IMG/VR virus record: IMGVR_UViG_3300026120_000003
Location: 1 to 42,128 of that record
Strand: one strand, 5' to 3'
From: a virus
Length of the DNA stretch: 42,128 nucleotides
In this document: piece by piece, positions 5,031 to 36,079 of the stretch
Numbering within the stretch: position 1 is the stretch's first letter
Layout: each line of letters opens with the position of its first letter
Translations under genes and position numbers: made by a program
The notes under the pieces: model-generated
The model's input: the letters and a program-made list of their open reading frames with translations, nothing else
What the model was told of the DNA's origin: nothing
The model's database searches: none

Positions 5031-7199
5031 TTAAGATGTCAACTCTGCGTAGGTGGGGAATTGGCGCATTTGGCGCTCGAACTCATTTTGGGACATGGAT
5101 GTTGGGATGTCGTGCATGTCTGCGATGATAAGATAATTCTGGAGCCGACCGCGAACACGGAAGCCTGCTTGCTCGTCGCGCGGCATAAGGTACTCGATAC
5201 CCTCGTGGCGCAGCTCGCGTGAGATGTCGCCCGCGACCGTCCCTTTGAGGCGCTTGTTACCATAGAACTGCTCGGCAATCATTGGGAATATCATGGCCAG
5301 CTCATCGGGCGTATAGTATGGCCGTACTTGGATACGTGAGAGGGCGTCAACCGTCTCTCTGCCGCGCGCCGCAGTTGCCGGGTCGTTGGAGTGCTCGGCG
5401 ATCTTGGCGCTCATTATGGCCTGCTCAAGCCACAGCATGACAATATTCTGGTCGGCTGTCTTCATCTCGTCGGCGAGACGCTGGACCGGGGACATGTTCT
5501 CGATACGCGCGATCTGCTTTTCTCGGGTCACTGGCGGATGTTCTGGCGGCACCCATCCATCCAGGTCATAATTCAGGAGGAAGTTACACACTTTCTGCGG
5601 TCCGTTGTTGTAGAGCATCCAGTCCGCGATTGGCTTATAAAACTGCACGCCGTCCTCGTGCTTGTCGCCCGCGTCCACCACATACATGCGTCGGTCGTCG
5701 CCGCTGAAACTGGCCAGGCGTCGGTCGTTGCCGGTGAGGATAAAGAACGCGTACTGCTTGATCTGTCGGCTTACGCGATACTTCTCATTGATGCTCATCT
5801 TGTCTTCGCTGACCCATCCTTTAAAGCGTTCGCTTCCTTTCTTGGATGACACGTGTTCGGGCAGCGCCTCGTCCATCGTGACAATCAGCGCGCGTTCCAT
5901 CCAGCCGTTGAAGTCGGACACCATCGCGACACTCTCTTGTGCGACACCGTACTGGCCCGCAGCGAGGCGTATCATCTTGGCCCACATGGACTTGCCGGAG
6001 CCCTGCGAACCGACCAGGACCATCGCCATAGGGACTTTAAGGTGTGGATTTTGGAACTTGTATGCCAGTAGCTTTAAAGCGAAGTCAGGATCGTCGTGGT
6101 TGACGTTCCGAAACACGTGCTCGTGGAGGCGCATGAAGGGCTTCACGTCGCCGGTATCTGTCTCCCACCCTTGCCATAGGTTGTACGCTTGGCCGCGCTC
6201 TGTCTCTATCGTGTGCTCCAGTGTAGACGGATCGAACACCGTGGTTGCGTAGCGTCTGGCATGCTCGTGTGTGAGCCACGCCTTGGACACCGATAGTTTC
6301 TTGACACCGTCACCCTTGGCGTTGGCTACCAGGACGTGCCGGGTCGAGTATCGCGATCCGCTGCTTAGATTATCCTTGCTGATATAGAGATTGGCTTCGA
6401 CGTCCAGCACTTTACCTTCCTCTTCCACCCATGCGATCTCTTCATTCAGCTTGGCGACTTCCACGTCCACCTTGCCCATGAAGCGAGCCGTGTCCAGGTA
6501 GTAGTGCCAGGTCTCCATGCCTTCGTTTTGAATGATGTCGTCGATACCCTGCTTGGCTCCGTCTGAGCTGTCGGGCAGACGTACCAGGTGGACCTTCGCG
6601 CCCATCTTTAAAGCAAGTATCTCGGCGAGGCGGGCCTCTGCCGTCATAATGTGGGGGTTGGTGGCGGCATCGCTGTCAAAGCAGATATAGACCGAGCGGC
6701 CTTTCCACATGATACGTTGTAGCGCGGGTAGGAGCGCACCGCTGTCCATGAAATTGAACACGCCACCTAGGCCGATAGTCGGAACACCTGCGAGGCACCC
6801 TGCCAGGGCTTTCTTCTCGCCTTCGGTGATGACAATTTTGTAACGCTTGTCGGCCAGCACTTCGCCCCAATCAACACCCGATCCCATCGGGAAGTATGGA
6901 AACACGCCCGAGTTGCTAGGCTGTGCGTAGCGCTGCGGCTTGGCTTTCTTTCCGAAGCCTTGGCGTACCCGTGGCTCTTTGAGGTATCGAATGCGGGCGA
7001 ATGGTAGCTGCTCGCCGTCGCGTTCGAACTCCATAAGCTCGCCGGTCTCAGGGTCATAGTAGGGGATGACAATGCAAGGTAGTTTGCGGAAGTCTTGGTA
7101 AACGTCGCGGGCGCTATCTTCGGTATACATACCGGCTGCTTCGGCGGCAGCTTCACTTATCCCTGATCGGGCAAGGTCTTTGATAGCATCTTTTTGCAC
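5031..7199 (-). CDS. Primase-helicase: TOPRIM-like domain plus superfamily 3-type helicase
   Basis: This 722-residue protein combines two activities. The N-terminal half has a TOPRIM-like core: ITEGEKKALAG (124-134, acidic E126) and FDSDAATN (174-181, DxD), resembling DUF3854-type primase domains. The C-terminal half is a helicase: Walker A VGSQGSGKS (396-404), Walker B ALIVTMDEA (D443, E444) and sensor FFILTGNDRR (N491), as in phage D5/DUF5906-type helicases. A zinc-binding primase domain is not visible. The start is GTG with AAGGAG about eight bases upstream; the TAA of the preceding small gene runs into that site. It carries three exact CTTTAAAG palindromes. It probably unwinds and primes at the fork for the family A polymerase. 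Confidence 0.85.
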   Translation of the reverse strand: MQKDAIKDLARSGISEAAAEAAGMYTEDSARDVYQDFRKLPCIVIPYYDPETGELMEFERDGEQLPFARIRYLKEPRVRQGFGKKAKPQRYAQPSNSGVFPYFPMGSGVDWGEVLADKRYKIVITEGEKKALAGCLAGVPTIGLGGVFNFMDSGALLPALQRIMWKGRSVYICFDSDAATNPHIMTAEARLAEILALKMGAKVHLVRLPDSSDGAKQGIDDIIQNEGMETWHYYLDTARFMGKVDVEVAKLNEEIAWVEEEGKVLDVEANLYISKDNLSSGSRYSTRHVLVANAKGDGVKKLSVSKAWLTHEHARRYATTVFDPSTLEHTIETERGQAYNLWQGWETDTGDVKPFMRLHEHVFRNVNHDDPDFALKLLAYKFQNPHLKVPMAMVLVGSQGSGKSMWAKMIRLAAGQYGVAQESVAMVSDFNGWMERALIVTMDEALPEHVSSKKGSERFKGWVSEDKMSINEKYRVSRQIKQYAFFILTGNDRRLASFSGDDRRMYVVDAGDKHEDGVQFYKPIADWMLYNNGPQKVCNFLLNYDLDGWVPPEHPPVTREKQIARIENMSPVQRLADEMKTADQNIVMLWLEQAIMSAKIAEHSNDPATAARGRETVDALSRIQVRPYYTPDELAMIFPMIAEQFYGNKRLKGTVAGDISRELRHEGIEYLMPRDEQAGFRVRGRLQNYLIIADMHDIPTSMSQNEFERQMRQFPTYAELTS

Positions 7200-10165: not shown

Positions 10166-10995
10166 TCGTGCACCTCATGAATTGCGCTTGCCTCAGCGTA
10201 GCGCATGTTAACCCATGCCGCCGCTGTTTCGTCAGTCTTAAAATGGTCTGCTTCGTCCATAAACACAGGCGGCACAATCAGGATAGTTTTAGGGTCGACG
10301 TCCAATAGCTGCCCATAGACTTTTTGCTGGTCTGCAATCCGCGTATTCCAATCCATATCATGATACGGCCAAGCGATCCGGTTGCGACTACCTGCGACGT
10401 GCTTGCACCCTACTGAAAACATGACTTGACGCTGTACCCGCGCGTCGGAAAGAGCGAACGCCACCCGCGCCACGTCTAGCGGCTTACTCTCAAGCGGGAC
10501 AACCCCAAAGAAAGTATGTGCGCTATAAGGCTTCATGCCTGCGGTCAAGTGAAGTGTCACGGCATGGCCTGCGGCTTCTAATTTACGCAGCAAGGCGAGC
10601 ACTGCAACGCCCCTACGCTCGATTAGATAACTCTTTATGCCTCCGCTTGTGATAGAGCTTACGCAGATAGTTATGGGGGCTTTAGCCTCACGTCGGCGAC
10701 GCATGCGCATGTTTATCGGCGAGCCTTGCAGAAAAGCCGGTACGTCGGCCATACCACCCGCCACAGCACGTTGCATGTGAGGCTCTTTCTCTGCCAGTTT
10801 CTCAATCGTTTCTATTTGGTCGAGTATCTTGTCGGATCGCGGCACAAGGCGGGTTTCTCCTTCACTTAGCCCTTTAAAGGTTGAGGGCGTCACGCGGTTG
10901 GCATACTCTAACAGTTCCCGCACGCTCTCAAATACCAGGGCGCGCGCGCTATCCTGCTCATTTTCTAATTTCACTATGCGGCTATGCATTTTCAT
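10162..10995 (-). CDS. Partner protein of the AAA+ ATPase (vWA-like/DUF7192-type phage family)
   Basis: This 277-residue protein has a basic linker (NMRMRRRREAKAPITIC), then IERRGVAVLALLRKLEAAGH and PLDVARVAFALSDARVQRQV. The order strand, RG-x-AVLAL, LEAAGH, and later PLD-x-x-R-x-AFAL is one I know from a widespread phage family of unknown function (DUF7192, name from memory) that often accompanies a MoxR-type ATPase. That pairing resembles MoxR/vWA couples and N4-type ATPase/vWA pairs. It lies directly downstream of the ATPase, overlapping it by 14 bases, so the two are probably made together. The N-terminal 90 residues are helical. No MIDAS DxSxS motif is evident, so any vWA similarity is structural guesswork. 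Confidence 0.6.
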   Translation of the reverse strand: MKMHSRIVKLENEQDSARALVFESVRELLEYANRVTPSTFKGLSEGETRLVPRSDKILDQIETIEKLAEKEPHMQRAVAGGMADVPAFLQGSPINMRMRRRREAKAPITICVSSITSGGIKSYLIERRGVAVLALLRKLEAAGHAVTLHLTAGMKPYSAHTFFGVVPLESKPLDVARVAFALSDARVQRQVMFSVGCKHVAGSRNRIAWPYHDMDWNTRIADQQKVYGQLLDVDPKTILIVPPVFMDEADHFKTDETAAAWVNMRYAEASAIHEVHE

Positions 10996-12229
10996 ATTCC
11001 TCCATTAGGCGCGACGTGCGCTCAGCGGCTAAAATGGCGCGCTCTATGGTTTGCGCTTGCTCGTCTGACAGTCCGGCAAGGTAGGTGAGTTGTGCCGCGT
11101 CATCTGGCGTCATGCCTTGCTTGATAAGCGCTGCGCCCGCTTGTGATTGGCGCGGCGTAATCATAACTTTAAGGCCTTGCTCTTTGGCCGCTGCTCTAGC
11201 CGCTTGAACGCGCGCGCTCCACTCGTCATTGCCTGTCATCTTGGTTTCTAGCTCTTCATCATAGCCCCAATCAAGGCGAGCCCCGAAGCGTTGCAAGAAT
11301 GCTGCGTCAATCCGAACGCGACCGACATATTCAGCCGTTGCGCCATGCCCGAAAGTGTTAGCCGCTCCGATGCACTTAAAGTTGTCATGTGCTTTGACGT
11401 GCTCGCCGTTGGGAAGTGACATAAAGCCGTTGGCCAGTGCTGAATTCAAACACAAAAGCGCTTCGTTCGATCCGGCGTCAATCTCGTCAAGCAAGATTAG
11501 CCCACCCTCTTTAAAGGCCCTAACAAATGGCGTCTCGTGGTATGTGCCGTTGGCGTCGACAAAGCCCGTCAACTCATGGGCCATAGTCATTGCGCCTTGC
11601 GCCTCAAACTTGAGGCCTAGTGCCTCCGCCGCTTGCATCGCGCCATAAGTCTTGCCCGAGCCAGAAGGTCCAGCGATCCACACATTCAGCCCGGCAGCAA
11701 GTGACGTTATCAAGGTTTCTAGCATGGGGTGAGATAGGCCAGTTACCTTATTTGTGCCGCGATCGGTTTTCACTTCGATAACACGTGACTTCTCAGCGCG
11801 TGCTTCTATCTCGTCCAGGCGTAGGACTAAGTTAGTGTTCTGGCGTCCTACTTCCTCGATTATGCCGTCTTTGACTGACTTGGCGAGCGCTTCGATATCG
11901 TCGTTATAGTGCTCAGCTAAATCAGGTAGCATTTTCTCGCGGGCAAGCTCAACCTGTCGCGCGACCATTTTCTCTATGCGCTCGTGATCGTCTTGAGTAA
12001 GGCGCGTTATCTTGGGGGGTGTGACTTTCTCCACTTCCTTTTCTACAACCTTCACGCGTGGCACCGCGTCTAGGGTGTTCTCTACCCAATAGCGAGACGA
12101 AACAGGCATAGTCCAAGCCTTGTTTTTGGCGTCCCATCGCGCGCCCTCACTCTTTAGAAGGTGGCGCTTTGTGTACGTGTCACCCGTGACCTCGATTTCA
12201 GTGTCTTTGATTTCGTAATAAATCGGCAT
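10982..12229 (-). CDS. MoxR/CbbQ-type AAA+ ATPase with N-terminal DUF5710-like domain
   Basis: This 415-residue protein starts with a small domain (residues 1-55) ending EGARWDAKNKAWTMP, the signature of DUF5710-type modules found in DNA-processing proteins. A charged helical linker (60-150) follows, then an AAA+ core: Walker A AGPSGSGKT (186-194), Walker B GLILLDEID (D248, E249), sensor 1 around AANTFG. Such ATPases remodel protein complexes, usually with a vWA-type partner, which the next gene may supply. In phages their targets are unknown; replication or virion assembly are both possible. The start ATG has GGAG eight bases upstream. Palindromes at 11511-11518 and a near miss CTTTAAGG at 11167 lie within. 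Confidence 0.85.
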   Translation of the reverse strand: MPIYYEIKDTEIEVTGDTYTKRHLLKSEGARWDAKNKAWTMPVSSRYWVENTLDAVPRVKVVEKEVEKVTPPKITRLTQDDHERIEKMVARQVELAREKMLPDLAEHYNDDIEALAKSVKDGIIEEVGRQNTNLVLRLDEIEARAEKSRVIEVKTDRGTNKVTGLSHPMLETLITSLAAGLNVWIAGPSGSGKTYGAMQAAEALGLKFEAQGAMTMAHELTGFVDANGTYHETPFVRAFKEGGLILLDEIDAGSNEALLCLNSALANGFMSLPNGEHVKAHDNFKCIGAANTFGHGATAEYVGRVRIDAAFLQRFGARLDWGYDEELETKMTGNDEWSARVQAARAAAKEQGLKVMITPRQSQAGAALIKQGMTPDDAAQLTYLAGLSDEQAQTIERAILAAERTSRLMEEYENA

Positions 12230-22639: not shown

Positions 22640-23434
22640 ATGACAACTGCGAGCGACATCATCACTAGAGCCTACCGTGACCCCAACATCATTGCCCTTG
22701 GTAAAACCCCAACGGCAGCGGAGGTCACGGAGGCTCTTCCTCTTTTGAACAGCATCATACAGAACGTATTTGGGCGTGTTGTCGGAGAGTTTGTCGAGGA
22801 CTGGCCTATCGGCACATTCTTCACCGCTCCAGACGGCGCACAGTACCCATTCGGTCCTCTCGACGACCGACCTTCAAAACAGACCTGGCAGTACCCCGTC
22901 CAGAACTCGAACGTGCTGGTACGCCTCACAACCGCCTCCACGATTTACTTCGAGCCCTACCCGGATGACGGCGCACAGATGGTTATCGTCGACAACGGTA
23001 ACGATTGGGTATCGAACCCTCTCACAATCGACTTCAACGGTCGCTCAGCTATCGTGACAAACGCCGGGACAGTCGCAGCCACAACCTACACCATCTCTGA
23101 GGCTCCAACCGCGCCGATCAAGTTCGTTTACCGCGCCGACCTCTCCCAATGGCGTATCATTCCAACCCTGGACTTCACAGGCACCGGAGCGGAGGTTATG
23201 CCTCTGCCCGACGAGTACGACGATTGGTTTTCGATTAGTCTCGCTGCGCGCCTATGCCCGCGTTTCTCCAAGCAAATGCCCGAGATGCTAATGGCGGTCG
23301 CTATGGAGCAAGAGAAGCAAATGAAGACGAGATATCGTCAGACAGAACGCGTCAACGTATTCCGGCGCGGGGAAGATCAACGCTCAATTCAGAGTATCGG
23401 CGGTCAGTATTACGACCAAGGGAACCTCCTTTAA
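22640..23434 (+). CDS. Tail accessory factor, P22 gp4-like
   Basis: This 264-residue protein starts MTTASDIITRAYRDPNIIAL with AAGGAG six bases upstream. The N-terminal helices (AEVTEALPLLNSIIQNVFG) and the C-terminal ARLCPRFSKQMPEMLMAVAM followed by EQEKQMKTRYRQ resemble head-completion or tail adaptor proteins that attach under the portal (gp4 in P22). A beta-rich insert (about 75-180) makes it longer than P22 gp4 (166). Its TAA stop is the centre of the palindrome at 23429-23436, the only case where the motif supplies a stop codon. Confidence 0.7.
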   Translation: MTTASDIITRAYRDPNIIALGKTPTAAEVTEALPLLNSIIQNVFGRVVGEFVEDWPIGTFFTAPDGAQYPFGPLDDRPSKQTWQYPVQNSNVLVRLTTASTIYFEPYPDDGAQMVIVDNGNDWVSNPLTIDFNGRSAIVTNAGTVAATTYTISEAPTAPIKFVYRADLSQWRIIPTLDFTGTGAEVMPLPDEYDDWFSISLAARLCPRFSKQMPEMLMAVAMEQEKQMKTRYRQTERVNVFRRGEDQRSIQSIGGQYYDQGNLL

Positions 23435-23436
23435 AG

Positions 23437-24669
23437 ATGGAACTACAGCTCGGCAAATCCTCCTATGAGCGCCAGTACGGTCGCATGCCTCCCATTGTGC
23501 TCGAAAACCGTTTCTTTGAAGAGAACCCGACCGACCAGCTCACGAAGTCGGCTCTCCTTTCACGCCCTGGCACAGACACGCTAACCGGCTTTGGTGCCGG
23601 ACCTATCCGCTCTTTGTTCTCTTTGGACGGCGTCTTTGGCGGAGACCTATTTGTCGTATCTGGAGTTGACGGATCGCTGTTCCGATACAGTCGCGACGGA
23701 ACCACCAAGACAACCCTCACAGGGACTATATTTGGCTCCGCCTTCGCGCCTATGGCTGCCACACGCAACTACCTGTTTATCACTGACGGACAGTCCCTCC
23801 AGTATTACAACGGCGTCGGAAGTTTCGCCACCGCGACACTGACGATCACGACCAACCCAACCAACGGAGAGACAGTCACCCTCGGAGCTACGACCTACAC
23901 CTTCAACACGACGCTCGGCGGCGCGAATAGTGTCTTGATCGGTGCAGACATCCAAGCGTCCCTGGCCAACCTGGCAGCGGCCATAACTGGCGGCAACGGC
24001 GAAGGTACAACCTACGGTACGGGAACCGTGGCCAACCTATCAGCATCCTTCGCGGTAACTGATCCTGCGGACGGCACAGGCGTCGCAACAGCTCTCACCG
24101 CAGGCACCGCAGGTAACTCCGTGGCGTCCACAGAGACCGGCGCGAACATGGCCTGGAGCACAACCACCTTGGAAGGCGGAACAGCGAACGCGTTGAACGG
24201 CATCCCCACACCCGATGACATCGGTATCGTCTCCCTGGCAGTAATCGCTGGATACGTCCTGCTAGTGGCCGCTGGCGGCGACCGCGTATATTGGATTGAA
24301 CCTACCACAGACGCGTTTTCGACGCCGGAGCTTCCGGTCATTGACCCTCTGAATTTCTTCTCTGCGGAACAGCTCCCGGATGAAATTATCGAGGTCAAAG
24401 TCGTCGGAGATGAGATTTGGTTCATCGGCGTAGAAAGCACCGAAGTATTCTATGTCACTGGCGGAACCGGAGTACCGTTCGCCCGTATCAAAGGACGCGC
24501 GTTCTCTCGGGGAGCCATTGAGGGTACGTTTGTCGTGGTCGGAAACCGGAAGTTTATCGTCGGAAATGACGGCGTCGTTTACAAATTGGGCGGTGGATTG
24601 CAAAGAATTTCAACCCATGCTATTGAAGAGGCTATTCGCGCGCAACGCAAGGCCGAAAGGAACACATAA
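23437..24669 (+). CDS. Packaged-DNA stabilisation (plug) protein, gp10-like N-terminal half
   Basis: This 410-residue protein starts with PPIVLENRFFEENPTDQLTK and LLSRPGTDTLTGFG, then YRYS-type propeller strands (GSLFRYSRDGT), and near the end GVESTEVFYVTGGTGVPFAR and GGGLQRISTHAIEEAIRAQ. These match the beta-propeller part of P22 gp10-like hub proteins, which seal the portal channel. Typical family members continue after RISTHAIE for about 200 residues with further strands; here the frame stops. The missing C-terminal region appears to be encoded at 26868-27725. A beta domain of about 118 residues (132-251) is inserted in the propeller and recurs in the next protein. The ATG directly follows a palindrome; stop overlaps the next ATG as TAATG. 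Confidence 0.7.
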   Translation: MELQLGKSSYERQYGRMPPIVLENRFFEENPTDQLTKSALLSRPGTDTLTGFGAGPIRSLFSLDGVFGGDLFVVSGVDGSLFRYSRDGTTKTTLTGTIFGSAFAPMAATRNYLFITDGQSLQYYNGVGSFATATLTITTNPTNGETVTLGATTYTFNTTLGGANSVLIGADIQASLANLAAAITGGNGEGTTYGTGTVANLSASFAVTDPADGTGVATALTAGTAGNSVASTETGANMAWSTTTLEGGTANALNGIPTPDDIGIVSLAVIAGYVLLVAAGGDRVYWIEPTTDAFSTPELPVIDPLNFFSAEQLPDEIIEVKVVGDEIWFIGVESTEVFYVTGGTGVPFARIKGRAFSRGAIEGTFVVVGNRKFIVGNDGVVYKLGGGLQRISTHAIEEAIRAQRKAERNT

Positions 24670-26852
24670 TGAGTGCACTATTCGAAGACAACTATGAACT
24701 CTATGGCGGCGACGCACAGAAGATGCTCGACGGAGTATGGGCCTCTTTAGGCGCGTCTTTTGTCGGCAGCGCAACGCTGACTATTCCCGCCTGGGAAGAG
24801 CAAGATCGCTATTGGCTGGCTATCAATGGGAGAGGCGACGGTGCACGCGCGGTATTCCCGGCTGGCGGACAGACCGGAGTAGGCGTATGGGCAGAGATGT
24901 ATCTGCCGGAACTACCTACGACCGCAGGCAGAGGCTTCCCTATCCAACTCAGAAACGCGTCGGATGACGTGCTCGTCGGTCTAGTAATCAACACAGACGG
25001 CACTATCAGCGCCTACGGAAACCCCTCGGGCTTCGCGTTCGACGGACTTACCGGAGCAACACTCATTGCTACAACCACCGTACCAGTACTCCAGGCCGCA
25101 ACGACACACTACCTGCAAATGGAAGTTGACTTCAGCGCCGGGGACTTAGAGCTGCGCGTCGACGGAGTGGCCGTTATCAGCGTTTCCAGCAATGCGAGCG
25201 TCGGCGGAACCTGCGTAGGCATCGCACACCAACAGAACGACGACAGCGGCGGAACTTACGCCCAAATGTACTTTAAAGGGGTTGCTGCATACAGCCTATC
25301 GGGCACGTACAATAGCTCTTGGCCCGCCATCTCTGGCATCAAGACGGTACTCATCAACGCGGACACCGCGACGGACAATCTCACACCACGCCCACGGAAC
25401 CACTTCGACACAGCGGTACTCTTCAACGACAGGATCGCTGGAGACGCCGGTATCCGTATTGACGAGAACTCGAACGCTTTCGACTACGGCACAGGCGATT
25501 ACACCCTGGAAGGCTATTTCCGCTTCATCCGCTCACCGGAAAGTGGAGAGACGTTCAACCTGCTTGGGGTATGGAACGAAAGCAACGATGAGCGCTGCTA
25601 CAGGCTCGCTTTAAAGGCGTCTGACGTCGACGGAGGCGGGCTCCAGTTCCAATACTCGACTGACGGTACTGACGGCACAGTTGTAACGGTACATGACGTG
25701 AATTGGGAGCCACAAATCGGCGTCTGGTATCATATCGCCGTGGCCCGAGACAGCTCGACCAACGACAACCGTCTGTTTATCGACGGCGTCCAACAGGGCA
25801 CAGACCAGACCGACAGCGCGACGTACAACGCTGGCAACAGCGATCACTTCTGTATCGGCAACATCACGTCCTCCAGCTCGGGACAAGCTCTCGGCTCAGA
25901 CGCTTTCTACGGCCACTTGCAGGACATCCGTGTCACGAAGGGTATCGTTCGCTACACCGCGAACTTTACCATCCCAACCACATTCTTCCCAACGGCCAGT
26001 CCGGCTGACCCGAACTTCTCATCGGTTTCACTGCTCGTACCGTTCTCAGACCCGAACCAAGACCCGGTACTCGACGTGTCCTCTAATAACTTCACCCTCG
26101 ACTTGGGCGGAGGCTGCTCCATCGTGGATTACGAAGATGAAGGCCCAAGCTATCTCGCAGCAGGTACAACCAATCCTCTCGACGATAGATACCTAGAAAG
26201 CGCTTTCCCGAAAGCCTCGGGTATTCTGACGCTCACCGACCAGCCTGGAGACACTGAGACAGTCGTTATCGGCTCTCGGACGTACACCTTCAACACGACG
26301 CTCGGAGCTGCTAACAGCATCCTGATTGGTGCGTCGGTCAATGACAGTTTGCAGAACCTCACCGACGCAATCAACGGCGGCGACGGATCGGGCACACGCT
26401 ACGGAACCGGCACAGCGACCAACACCGACGTCACGGCGGAGAATAACACTCCATCCGCGTCTCAGATGACTGTCACAGCTATTCTCGGCGGTACAGGCGA
26501 CAACTCCCTGGCCACGACTGAAACGCTCACTGACGGCTCTTGGGGCGGCTCAACGCTCTCTGGCGGCGCAAACCTGCCTGGAGCATCGGAGTTCGAAATA
26601 CAGTCGCTTCCACCGGACGCAACAGGTGTGAGATGGTTGTCCATCCGTCACCGATCTTACCTAGATGACGGCTCGGCTACTATCCGCACGAACCTGGACG
26701 TCAATGGCTCTGAAAGCTCGAACGACGACAACGGCCTCACGACCGACCCACAGTATTACGTCAGTCGCATTGAGGAAGACCCGGACACGTCCGCTGCTCT
26801 GACCGTCAGCTCAATCGAGAATGCGAAACTCAAAATCGAACGCACCGCTTAG
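24669..26852 (+). CDS. LamG (concanavalin A-like) tail protein, probable receptor-binding
   Basis: This 727-residue protein contains at least one clear LamG domain: YTLEGYFRFIRSPESGETFN, VWYHIAVARDS, RLFIDGVQQGT and FYGHLQDIRVTKGIVRYTAN (about 275-435). A second, more diverged lectin-like sandwich lies at about 60-220 (HYLQMEVDFSAGDLELRVDG). Residues about 516-634 repeat the beta domain found inside the upstream plug protein. LamG modules bind carbohydrates, so a role in host-surface recognition is likely (inference). It lies between two pieces of what looks like one plug gene. Two palindromes at 25271 and 25609. Confidence 0.75.
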   Translation: MSALFEDNYELYGGDAQKMLDGVWASLGASFVGSATLTIPAWEEQDRYWLAINGRGDGARAVFPAGGQTGVGVWAEMYLPELPTTAGRGFPIQLRNASDDVLVGLVINTDGTISAYGNPSGFAFDGLTGATLIATTTVPVLQAATTHYLQMEVDFSAGDLELRVDGVAVISVSSNASVGGTCVGIAHQQNDDSGGTYAQMYFKGVAAYSLSGTYNSSWPAISGIKTVLINADTATDNLTPRPRNHFDTAVLFNDRIAGDAGIRIDENSNAFDYGTGDYTLEGYFRFIRSPESGETFNLLGVWNESNDERCYRLALKASDVDGGGLQFQYSTDGTDGTVVTVHDVNWEPQIGVWYHIAVARDSSTNDNRLFIDGVQQGTDQTDSATYNAGNSDHFCIGNITSSSSGQALGSDAFYGHLQDIRVTKGIVRYTANFTIPTTFFPTASPADPNFSSVSLLVPFSDPNQDPVLDVSSNNFTLDLGGGCSIVDYEDEGPSYLAAGTTNPLDDRYLESAFPKASGILTLTDQPGDTETVVIGSRTYTFNTTLGAANSILIGASVNDSLQNLTDAINGGDGSGTRYGTGTATNTDVTAENNTPSASQMTVTAILGGTGDNSLATTETLTDGSWGGSTLSGGANLPGASEFEIQSLPPDATGVRWLSIRHRSYLDDGSATIRTNLDVNGSESSNDDNGLTTDPQYYVSRIEEDPDTSAALTVSSIENAKLKIERTA

Positions 26853-26867
26853 GAGGGGCTTTAAAGC

Positions 26868-27725
26868 ATGACAGCTCTAACCCCTCTCTACTCCGGGATG
26901 GTTGTTTACGGCGAAGGGGCAAACTCTTCGGACGACCCTCAAGGCGGTCCACGTACAGAACAGTTCGCTGGCCTGGCAGTAATCGAGACGTCCACACCTG
27001 CGGAACTAGCGTCAGCGTCACAGTTCGCTGGCCTGGCCGTGTTCGAGTTCGGTCCAGACAGTGACCTTGACAAGGGCGGTCCAGCTACGTCACAGCTCGC
27101 GGGACTTGTCGTGTGGGGTACGAACGTTCGGGAACAGCTCAACATCCGCTCGTGGGGCTTCGAAATGGACGGGCACGTGTTCGTGGTATACAGCTTCGGC
27201 GCGCAGGGCACATTCGTCTATGACGACCTCACCGGACGCTGGAGCAAGTGGTACACCCAAGGCTTCGGAAACATGTGGAACGCGGAGAACGGGATTTACT
27301 GGTACGACGGCCTCTATGTCGCAGCCTCCATTCAAGACCCTACCGTGGTGCAGATGGACTTCGACAGCGAGTTCGATGACGGCTTCCGAACCATCCAACG
27401 CGTCGTTACCGGACTTGTCACTTTAAAGCACAGAGACCAGACGCTCGACGTCGGCGCGCTCCACATTGACGCGTCGGTCGGCGCTCCATCTCTGACCGAA
27501 CCGAACCCTCCAGGCCCACGTATGAGGTTGCGATACAGCGACGACGAGGGTAACACATGGTCGGACTTCGAGAACGTCTCCCTGGTAGTGGGAGAGTTCA
27601 ACCAAGACGTACAATGGCGCTCTCTCGGCACCATCTTCGCACCTGGACGCATCTTCGAGATTAGCGACGAGGGAGGGGTTGTCCGAATTGACGGAGCGTG
27701 GCTGGACACCTATGGAGATGACTAA
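26868..27725 (+). CDS. Plug (gp10-like) C-terminal half as a separate protein
   Basis: This 285-residue protein begins with three short repeats (EQFAGLAVIE, SQFAGLAVFE, SQLAGLVVWG; the first two share 17 identical bases, 60 bp apart). It continues with DGHVFVVYSFGAQGTFVYDD, LTGRWSKW, RMRLRYSDDEGNTWSDF, VQWRSLGTIFAPGRIFEIS and IDGAWLD. These are, in order, the features expected at the C-terminal end of gp10-type stabilisation proteins (tail of the propeller, then RYSDDGG-TW and WRRLG). So the plug seems split, with this half carrying its own start and an AGGAGG ribosome-binding site separated from the ATG by a CTTTAAAG palindrome. Both halves must presumably associate in the tail. Confidence 0.65.
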   Translation: MTALTPLYSGMVVYGEGANSSDDPQGGPRTEQFAGLAVIETSTPAELASASQFAGLAVFEFGPDSDLDKGGPATSQLAGLVVWGTNVREQLNIRSWGFEMDGHVFVVYSFGAQGTFVYDDLTGRWSKWYTQGFGNMWNAENGIYWYDGLYVAASIQDPTVVQMDFDSEFDDGFRTIQRVVTGLVTLKHRDQTLDVGALHIDASVGAPSLTEPNPPGPRMRLRYSDDEGNTWSDFENVSLVVGEFNQDVQWRSLGTIFAPGRIFEISDEGGVVRIDGAWLDTYGDD

Positions 27726-29068
27726 TGGCGGAACGCGCTGACCCTATCGGCTATGAAACTACCATCACATACGATGACGGTAGGCCGACCGACTTTTTCA
27801 TCCAGCAATGGAACTCGCAGCTCAATGTGAACACCTACGCGTTCAATGACATTGTGGCCGGTCCAGGACTATCTGGCGGCGGCGCTCTGGCGGACGGGGA
27901 GGTCACCCTATTTCTCCCTGAATTGGGATCGGAGGGGACATATGGGTCAGCAACGGAAGTGCCCGTCATCGAAATCGACGAGTTCGGACGCGTCACGGCG
28001 GTTACATTGGCAACGGTTGCAGCGACGGTCGCAGTCCAGGACGCGGGCGCAGCGTTTGGCAACTTCACGACGTTCAACTTCGAGACTGGCGCGACGCTGA
28101 CCGACAGCGGTGGCGGCGTACTCCAGATTGACATCTCCACAGGCTCCAGCGGCGTCGACGTGGAAGACGAGGGCGTATCAGTAACGACGGGCTCTACCAC
28201 GTTGAACTTCACAGGCGGAGTTGCGGTAACCGACGCTGGCAGCGGACAGACCAACATCGCCATATTCTCAGGTGTCGACGTCGAAGATGACGGCGTATCT
28301 GTCACATCCGACAGCCCAACACTCAACTTCACCGGAGCTGGCGTCACTGTTACCGACGCAGGCGGCGGACAGACCAATATCGCTATCCCTGGCGGCGGTG
28401 GGGGCGGTTCAGGCGTGGATGTAGAGGACGATGGTGCAAGCGTAACCACAGGATCGACAAAACTCAACTTCACTGGCGCAGGCGTCACCGTCACAGACGC
28501 AGGCGGCGGACAAGCCGACATCGCCATACCTGGCGGCGGAGGCGGAGGCGGAAGCGGCACGTTCGGCGGACTTATGATCGGTGACAGCTCTTACACCAAC
28601 TTCACGGACGCTTCGGCGACCAAGGGCTTCCCATTCATGCCTACCGCTGACGTGACAGTTGCGGCGGTGAACGCGCTCATCAACCCGTCCTCTACGTCTG
28701 AGACATATACGGCTCAAATCTGCACATTCTCGGCCACCGACGCTTCCGGCTCTGTGATCGCTGTTGTCGCTACCTCGACGGTGCAGACAGCGGTTTCGAC
28801 ACAGTTCGGGGTGTACCGTTTCACCTTCACATCGCCTCCATCTTTGACGCGCGGAACCACATATCTTCTGGCGATCAACCGGACAGACGGCACGGGCACT
28901 TCGGCCTTGATTATGGTCGGTGACGGTAACGTCACTCAGAGTGGACCATTCGTGTGCTTTTCGAACGGAACACAGTATTTTGACACGACGGCGCTCGTAG
29001 CGTCCGACAGTAACGACGGCGGGACGACCTCATCGGAGATTGCGGTGTGGATCGAATGCTCGGCTTAA
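27725..29068 (+). CDS. Tail fibre-like protein with tandem beta repeats
   Basis: This 447-residue protein has about four repeats of 40-47 residues: GATLTDSGGG, then VDVEDEGVSVTTGSTTLNF, VDVEDDGVSVTSDSPTLNF and VDVEDDGASVTTGSTKLNF, each followed by VTVTDAGGGQ-type strands; the last two are nearly identical and end in Gly runs (GGGGGG). Such repeats build trimeric fibre shafts. The C-terminal 160 residues, beginning GTFGGLMIGDSSYTNF, form a separate beta-rich head that may bind the receptor. The start overlaps the preceding stop as TAATG. A sigma-70-type promoter follows. Confidence 0.75.
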   Translation: MAERADPIGYETTITYDDGRPTDFFIQQWNSQLNVNTYAFNDIVAGPGLSGGGALADGEVTLFLPELGSEGTYGSATEVPVIEIDEFGRVTAVTLATVAATVAVQDAGAAFGNFTTFNFETGATLTDSGGGVLQIDISTGSSGVDVEDEGVSVTTGSTTLNFTGGVAVTDAGSGQTNIAIFSGVDVEDDGVSVTSDSPTLNFTGAGVTVTDAGGGQTNIAIPGGGGGGSGVDVEDDGASVTTGSTKLNFTGAGVTVTDAGGGQADIAIPGGGGGGGSGTFGGLMIGDSSYTNFTDASATKGFPFMPTADVTVAAVNALINPSSTSETYTAQICTFSATDASGSVIAVVATSTVQTAVSTQFGVYRFTFTSPPSLTRGTTYLLAINRTDGTGTSALIMVGDGNVTQSGPFVCFSNGTQYFDTTALVASDSNDGGTTSSEIAVWIECSA

Positions 29069-35170: not shown

Positions 35171-36079
35171 ATGTCAATAACAGAACAAGCACAGCCCGGT
35201 GACGGGGAGGGAGGCGCGAAGAAACTCGACGCCAAGAAAGTACCTTTCTTTAAAGGGCTAATTGGATACTTCCCTCGCGCCCTCAAACAGGTCGCTTTGG
35301 TCAGCCGATACGGCGCACATAAGTATGACTGGAATGGTTGGGAGGCCGTCCCGAACGGTGAAGAGCGGTATATGGATGGGCTCGCCCGCCATATCAACGC
35401 TATCTCTGAGGAAGGTCAGTTCGATATCACGGACAGTAACCTACCTCACCTGGCACAAGTGGCGTGGAACGCGCTGGCCGTCCTGGAGCTTAAGATGCGC
35501 TCCGGTGAGATACCTCTGACCGCTATCGACTATGACGGTGAGGTTGTCGGACACGGTAACACCCTGAAAGAGGGCAATCCGTTCGTGGACGAGGCGAAGG
35601 TGGCTATGCCAGACTTCTACGACAGGGTCCGCGACATCGTGTATTGGGCGAACAAAGAGCGTCTGGAAAGCACCATTCAAGAGCTTGGTATGAGTACGAA
35701 GGCGGCTGACAGCGTGAACCATCCGGGGTACTGGATGATGAAATCTTACGCCGAAGAAAGAAAATTCCGGTCAAAATATCCCGAAGTCATCAACGCTATG
35801 CCGGAACGTCCCCTTGAAAGAGTGGATACGGAAAAAGGCAACCAGCTCATCGTGCCGCACCCGGACTTCTGCGAGGGTAATCGCATATACTGGCACAGCA
35901 AACAGCGCGCCCTGGAGATGCTAAAGACCTTGGGAGCGAACCCAAACGATCTCAGCAAGAGTAGCAACTTTAAAGGCACTTGGTTTGTCGGGCGTTGGGC
36001 GCAAAGGCTGTACCAGGAAAAGTATCCGGCCTACTACGACCGGCTTAGCGACGCGGTAAGACCTGCCCGCCGAAATTAG
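35171..36079 (+). CDS. dATP/dGTP pyrophosphohydrolase-like (DUF5664) N-terminal domain plus extra C-terminal domain
   Basis: Residues 17-100 contain KKVPFFKGLIGYFPRALKQV, GAHKYDWNGW, RYMDGLARHINAI and LPHLAQVAWNALAVLEL. This order (K-R/F-L, GA-KY-WNW, RY-DAL-RH, hLAH--WcalalLe) is that of DUF5664/dGTP-dATP pyrophosphohydrolase domains, all-alpha NTP pyrophosphatases that include MazZ-like proteins. The remaining 200 residues are unrecognised, with WMMKSYAEERKFRSKYPEV and a C-terminal helix. At 302 residues it is longer than stand-alone members. It is the last rightward gene; its final 35 bases overlap the opposing lipoprotein gene. Confidence 0.7.
   Translation: MSITEQAQPGDGEGGAKKLDAKKVPFFKGLIGYFPRALKQVALVSRYGAHKYDWNGWEAVPNGEERYMDGLARHINAISEEGQFDITDSNLPHLAQVAWNALAVLELKMRSGEIPLTAIDYDGEVVGHGNTLKEGNPFVDEAKVAMPDFYDRVRDIVYWANKERLESTIQELGMSTKAADSVNHPGYWMMKSYAEERKFRSKYPEVINAMPERPLERVDTEKGNQLIVPHPDFCEGNRIYWHSKQRALEMLKTLGANPNDLSKSSNFKGTWFVGRWAQRLYQEKYPAYYDRLSDAVRPARRN

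Follow-up and report, generated by a model that had tools for sequence, protein, structure and literature searches.

A P22 gp10-like tail hub protein encoded as two halves around a lectin/LamG gene, and the recurrence of this split in a clade of viral sequences

In this study, the window analysed was the whole stretch of a 42-kb virus record (42,128 nucleotides; IMGVR_UViG_3300026120_000003), all of which was covered by a six-frame search. Profile matches revealed a P22-type morphogenesis block encoding a large terminase, a P22-like portal protein, a P22-like coat protein, an adaptor-like protein, the three products that are the subject of this report and a DNA-ejection family protein (phrog_598), so that the order portal, coat, adaptor, gp10 and ejection genes matches that of P22 gp10 systems. 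The adaptor-like protein (22640–23434; plus strand, as are the features described after it up to 29068) has a weak match to head-tail adaptor Ad3 (phrog_12985, E 1e-9; phrog_637, E 0.0015), and an adaptor is encoded in the same position in Pam1 and Pan3. The three open reading frames that follow were confirmed to share a strand and to have individual start and stop codons, as the preliminary description of this DNA had stated. They encode a protein resembling the front of gp10 (N-half, 23437–24669), a 727-residue protein (the slot gene product, 24669–26852, stop codon TAG) and a protein resembling the rest of gp10 (C-half, 26868–27725). The N-half and slot genes are joined by a TAATG stop/start overlap (24667–24671), consistent with translational coupling, and a Shine-Dalgarno-like AGGAGG (26851–26856) overlaps the slot stop upstream of the C-half ATG at 26868. 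The slot and C-half frames are identical in this record, with one stop between them. The start of the next gene (27725–29068) overlaps the C-half stop; no profile matched its product, which has repeated glycine-rich segments (GVDVEDDGVSVT...) and no clear family, and is a possible needle or fibre protein.

The two halves tile a single gp10 profile, phrog_578 (head closure Hc3, P22 gp10), of whose 486 positions the N-half matched 5–285 (E 7e-32) and the C-half 287–453 (E 7e-15). No convincing Pfam match was obtained for the N-half, slot protein or C-half, and the six-frame search of the entire record identified no gp10 matches beyond the two halves. AlphaFold2 models of the halves, which were predicted separately and not as a complex from alignments of the window and locus sequences only, were superimposed on known structures using VIA-align. 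The N-half model (mean pLDDT 84) was placed on residues 52–288 of P22 gp10 (8eap_D; Z 21.4), on residues 46–286 of the Pan3 protein (9vyg_M; Z 24.6) and on that of Pam1 (7eeq; Z 22.6), and the C-half model on residues 284–472 of 8eap_D (Z 13.9), 260–440 of 9vyg (Z 13.5) and 258–435 of 7eeq (Z 12.2). Combined, the models account for the beta-propeller and platform fold of gp10, with no part missing between them and little duplication, and the chain break falls at P22 gp10 residue ~284–288. By our own reading of the DSSP strings, the N-half has an N-terminal platform segment, approximately five propeller blades and a helix at its end, and the C-half has approximately two blades, the last of the propeller, and the jelly roll of the platform. 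The C-half core (residues ~93–285) was well predicted, whereas its 92-residue N-terminal extension was modelled poorly. N-half residues ~1–50 contain many invariant positions and were modelled with a pLDDT of ~50 when alone. In phage SU10, the N-terminal segment and the C-terminus of the nozzle protein together make the platform domain (PMC9509320). Based on these models and the SU10 arrangement, the halves probably require each other to fold. The suggestion in the preliminary description that a plug (gp10-like) protein is split around another gene is thus borne out by both profile tiling and superposition on P22 gp10. However, the gp10 family is defined by a single polypeptide, and since there are two open reading frames 2.2 kb apart here, this is a split variant and not an ordinary gp10 member.

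Relatives were collected by scanning viral contigs with the halves and were then classified with HMMs, giving 205 loci (numbered with the prefix L) that are non-redundant by N-half DNA; owing to query bias, the counts do not represent natural frequencies. The gp10 counterpart is split in 129 loci and unsplit in 76, where it is one chain of 438–517 residues. A separate slot gene is present in 102 of the split loci; in 26 others the module precedes the C-half as a fusion with it, and in one it is fused to the end of the N-half. Two of the 26 loci with a C-half fusion, L029 and L084, have retained a separate slot gene as well. A single chain of N-half, insertion and C-half was not found in any of the 205 loci. 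Two MAG contigs obtained in an alignment-based scan of genome bins were both split. In most relatives the N-half, slot and C-half genes are joined by stop/start overlaps or by short gaps with Shine-Dalgarno-like sequences, which are found ahead of the slot start, and likewise of the C-half start, in most cases. Unsplit homologs that span both halves also occur in cultured phages, including P22 (gp10), VvAW1, DSL-LC05 and others, and by sequence the solved relatives are the needle head of Pam1 (7EEQ) and the stabilization protein of Pan3 (9VYG), each of which is a single chain. The possibility that each half is a complete, separate family with no spanning homolog, which would have refuted the split, is thereby removed. 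No split gp10 was found in cultured phages searched with N-halves, C-halves and a fused form; the gp10 annotations that we inspected were all single genes, although some matches were not inspected.

In a tree of the N-half and C-half cores of 71 representatives, a branch with SH-aLRT support of 100 separates every split sequence except one from the other sequences. The exception, L003, groups with the unsplit L002, and its gp10 is cut elsewhere, at a slightly later position (profile positions 4–325 and 337–470), and is an independent second split. At L003:2586–5096, the C-terminal part of gp10 is fused to the RCC1 repeats that interrupt it. Within the main split clade, separate and fused slots have interchanged several times. 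The preliminary description had left open whether a receptor-type gene was inserted into the plug gene or a two-chain hub is the natural state. Each alternative appears to be right in part, as successive stages: most likely the ancestor was unsplit and its gene was entered by a module, and on our best reading a conserved, split gp10 has since become the norm throughout the clade, whose hub is naturally two-chain.

The slot protein of the window consists of a ConA-like lectin domain (residues 1–215), a LamG-like part (~267–452), a domain that we term INS (~516–634) and a conserved C-terminal domain (637–727). It was identified by alignment, full-length relatives and a homolog in a siphophage, Tetraselmis viridis virus S20. 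The preliminary description was correct on the reading frame, its size and its direction, but its naming of the product as LamG finds no support above Pfam thresholds; the lectin/LamG assignment rests on matches to phrog_38322 and phrog_24074, phrog_2448-type homology via relatives and sequence character. The alignment did show the N-terminal ConA-like and conserved C-terminal domains that mark ConA-like/LamG virion lectins, and the slot protein of L009 matched the S20 lectin end to end, as well as phrog_2448. The largest slot group (104 loci) has this ConA-like and C-terminal pair, with the LamG part and INS being optional. The other slots make up about a dozen groups with no detectable similarity between them, so that the slot modules appear, from sequence, to be interchangeable. 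Contents beyond lectin/LamG include RCC1 (L003), PKD/Ig-like domains (PKD in L155, at a contig end), SprB-like repeats (L090) and several unknowns. In L147 (7257–9593), a TIM barrel like that of the N4 non-contractile tail sheath/Gp64 lies ahead of, and is fused to, the gp10 C-half. N4 itself is described as lacking gp10/tubeB (PMC10386132). Its sheath protein gp65 binds the receptor NfrA and also has a stabilizing role for the tail plug (PMC12892993). By analogy, that function is the best pointer we have to what the slot may be for.

The INS domain (~120 residues) occurs twice in the window, within the N-half (23827–24189; residues ~131–252, identified by HMM search) and within the slot protein (26214–26570; HMM E 3e-26), and the two copies are 49% identical. 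Of the 120 split N-halves whose front part is intact, which carry 0 to 2 full copies, 108 contain it, as against none of the 76 unsplit proteins. Tandem copies were seen in the N-halves of L046 and L027, and L063 had fragmentary multiple matches. By strand count, INS would fit an in-chain insertion between blades of the SU10/T7 type, but the slot module is off-chain. The domains of the SU10 nozzle sit between propeller blades 2 and 3 (PMC9509320), and the inferred INS site in the second blade of the N-half would resemble that insertion site.

The extension of the C-half (26868–27143, ~92 residues) is not part of gp10 and consists of short SQ-type repeats (SQFAGLAV..) that are evident as DNA repeats and modelled with low confidence. 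At loci with a separate slot gene, the C-half usually starts with ~60–130 residues of such repeats. Significant internal repetition was detected in 92 of the 102 C-halves from separate-slot loci and in one of the 26 from fused-slot loci, that one being L084, where a separate slot gene is present too. Supported branches of the tree provided four phylogenetically independent contrasts, nearly all in the expected direction (p 0.125). With only four contrasts, the association between repeats and slot type falls short of significance and could in part be due to common descent. Neither the other modules in the same slot nor the occurrence of repeats alongside a separately encoded slot protein was visible to the preliminary description. 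In S20 (L169:4001–6805), the lectin gene is followed by a gene for a phrog_778 tail assembly protein that carries LamG and SQ repeats N-terminally; the annotated start of the latter gene (5306) is well within an open frame beginning near 5039. As the same arrangement is found on a second hub protein, the lectin and the SQ repeats look like a portable docking pair, an interpretation drawn from comparison of the two loci.

Comparison with the 84% relative L001 gave dN/dS values of 0.07 for the N-half, 0.14 for the slot gene, 0.09 for the C-half (0.06 for its core) and 0.08 for the coat gene. These ratios are approximate because dS is near saturation. Purifying selection acts on each half at roughly the strength seen for the coat protein. 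Mirror-tree distance correlations were 0.68 between N-half and C-half and 0.70 between N-half and slot, and since the former is no higher than the latter, coupling of the halves to each other is not singled out.

The closest known counterparts are gp10 of P22/Sf6, the Pam1 needle head and the Pan3 stabilization protein (PHROG 578, Hc3, "tubeB"), which are alike in profile and fold, are likewise encoded next to the adaptor gene, on its downstream side, and can be covered end to end by the two halves. The unsplit P22-gp10-type members retrieved are one chain of about 440–520 residues, in contrast to the two chains found here with an intervening gene, the INS domain of the N-half and the repeats that extend the C-half. 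Nozzles with in-chain insertions, such as SU10 gp17, T7 gp12 and the phicrAss001 muzzle, were also structural matches (Z ~8.5 for T7 with the C-half; Z ~16 for SU10 with the N-half). Their insertions keep one chain; here this holds for INS, but a chain break accompanies the slot module. Siphophage S20 is alike in having a lectin gene (phrog_2448) before that of a hub protein whose N-terminus carries LamG and SQ repeats, but that hub is an unsplit siphophage tail assembly protein (phrog_778) and not gp10. The N4 gp65/Gp64 TIM barrel (PDB 9lc0) is homologous to that in the L147 slot, where it is fused to the gp10 C-half; in N4 itself the sheath and Gp64 are separate tail proteins without a tubeB (PMC10386132), and the slot of the present record holds a lectin instead of a TIM barrel.

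We consider it likely that the three genes specify a P22-gp10-type hub (Hc3, nozzle/"tubeB") made as two chains per subunit, in which the break serves as a slot for an adhesion module. The N-half, with most of the blades, and the C-half, with the last blades and the platform, would associate without a peptide bond into one hub subunit, and by analogy with gp10 the ring would probably contain six copies. The break at gp10 residue ~284–288 would then be the place where the phage encodes its adhesion module, the 727-residue lectin/LamG protein, which may dock on the SQ repeats of the C-half and, positioned on the tail hub, bind the cell surface. The observations beneath this proposal are halves that tile one gp10, unsplit relatives, a conserved split of single origin in its clade, purifying selection on all three genes and a variable slot content. 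Pairing of the halves, the hexameric ring, the presence of the slot protein in the particle, its docking, and its binding to glycan and receptor are inferred, as there are no virion data.

An alternative that we regard as unlikely is that gp10 was broken by a passenger, with the slot gene being a moron or cargo gene, so that the halves pair while the slot product is not on the hub. A freestanding slot frame in 102 of the 129 split loci and slot homologs in unrelated phages are in keeping with this, but in the 26 C-half and one N-half fusions the module is physically on the hub, the slot gene is itself under purifying selection (dN/dS 0.14), and its only homolog of known function belongs to a virion tail sheath/receptor-binding family. 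It is more doubtful still that the halves are two different proteins at two places, such as two rings: each does have a separate start, stop and ribosome-binding site, and tail-hub genes can duplicate, as with dual tubeA (PMC10386132), yet the halves complement each other within one fold, without overlap, instead of being paralogs, the record lacks a full-length gp10, and the N-terminus of the N-half is modelled poorly without the C-half.

The chance that the halves are joined after all, by an intein, intron, programmed frameshift or stop readthrough, appears very slim despite the shared frame and single stop between slot gene and C-half in this record. All three frame offsets were found in relatives at both junctions (45/37/20 for N-half/slot; 46/38/18 for slot/C-half), which rules out a fixed frameshift or readthrough. 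Rfam detected no intron or other RNA in the 42-kb window, a result that, like the mixed offsets, agrees with the absence of intein or intron features noted previously. Shine-Dalgarno-like sequences upstream of most slot and C-half starts, and the lack of a single-chain version in 205 loci, also speak against joining. Gene decay or an assembly error has no support other than the split itself and can be set aside almost entirely: it is refuted by the census, in which the same break recurs in 129 loci from separate assemblies, and purifying selection and the second, independent split in L003 also count against it.

A two-chain hub subunit with an adhesion slot, our preferred reading, raises a wider possibility to which we give about even chances, namely that a widespread podovirus clade has an obligate heterodimer hub whose break opens the propeller at one fixed place for swapping receptor-binding modules, either free or fused to either half. 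A chain break would be expected to be poorly tolerated in a hub protein that both seals the head and provides the channel for DNA. That the same break recurs in ~130 viral sequences, has arisen once in the main and once more independently, and holds about a dozen unrelated modules suggests a general route by which podoviruses change host recognition. As far as we found, a split, conserved gp10 variant is undescribed, there being no description of a split gp10/tubeB in the open literature searched. In automated annotation, the halves may be reported as two distinct genes or as truncated ones. A testable prediction also follows on the assembly of a split beta-propeller and the docking of an adhesin.

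Two further genes of the window gave profile matches. In the product of 35171–36079, one and the same N-terminal stretch matched amidase-type endolysin families as well as a dATP/dGTP pyrophosphohydrolase family, with no assignment for the remainder of the protein. The product of 10982–12229 (minus strand) matched a phage family named "porphyrin biosynthesis" (phrog_249, E 3e-59) and is an ATPase-like auxiliary protein.
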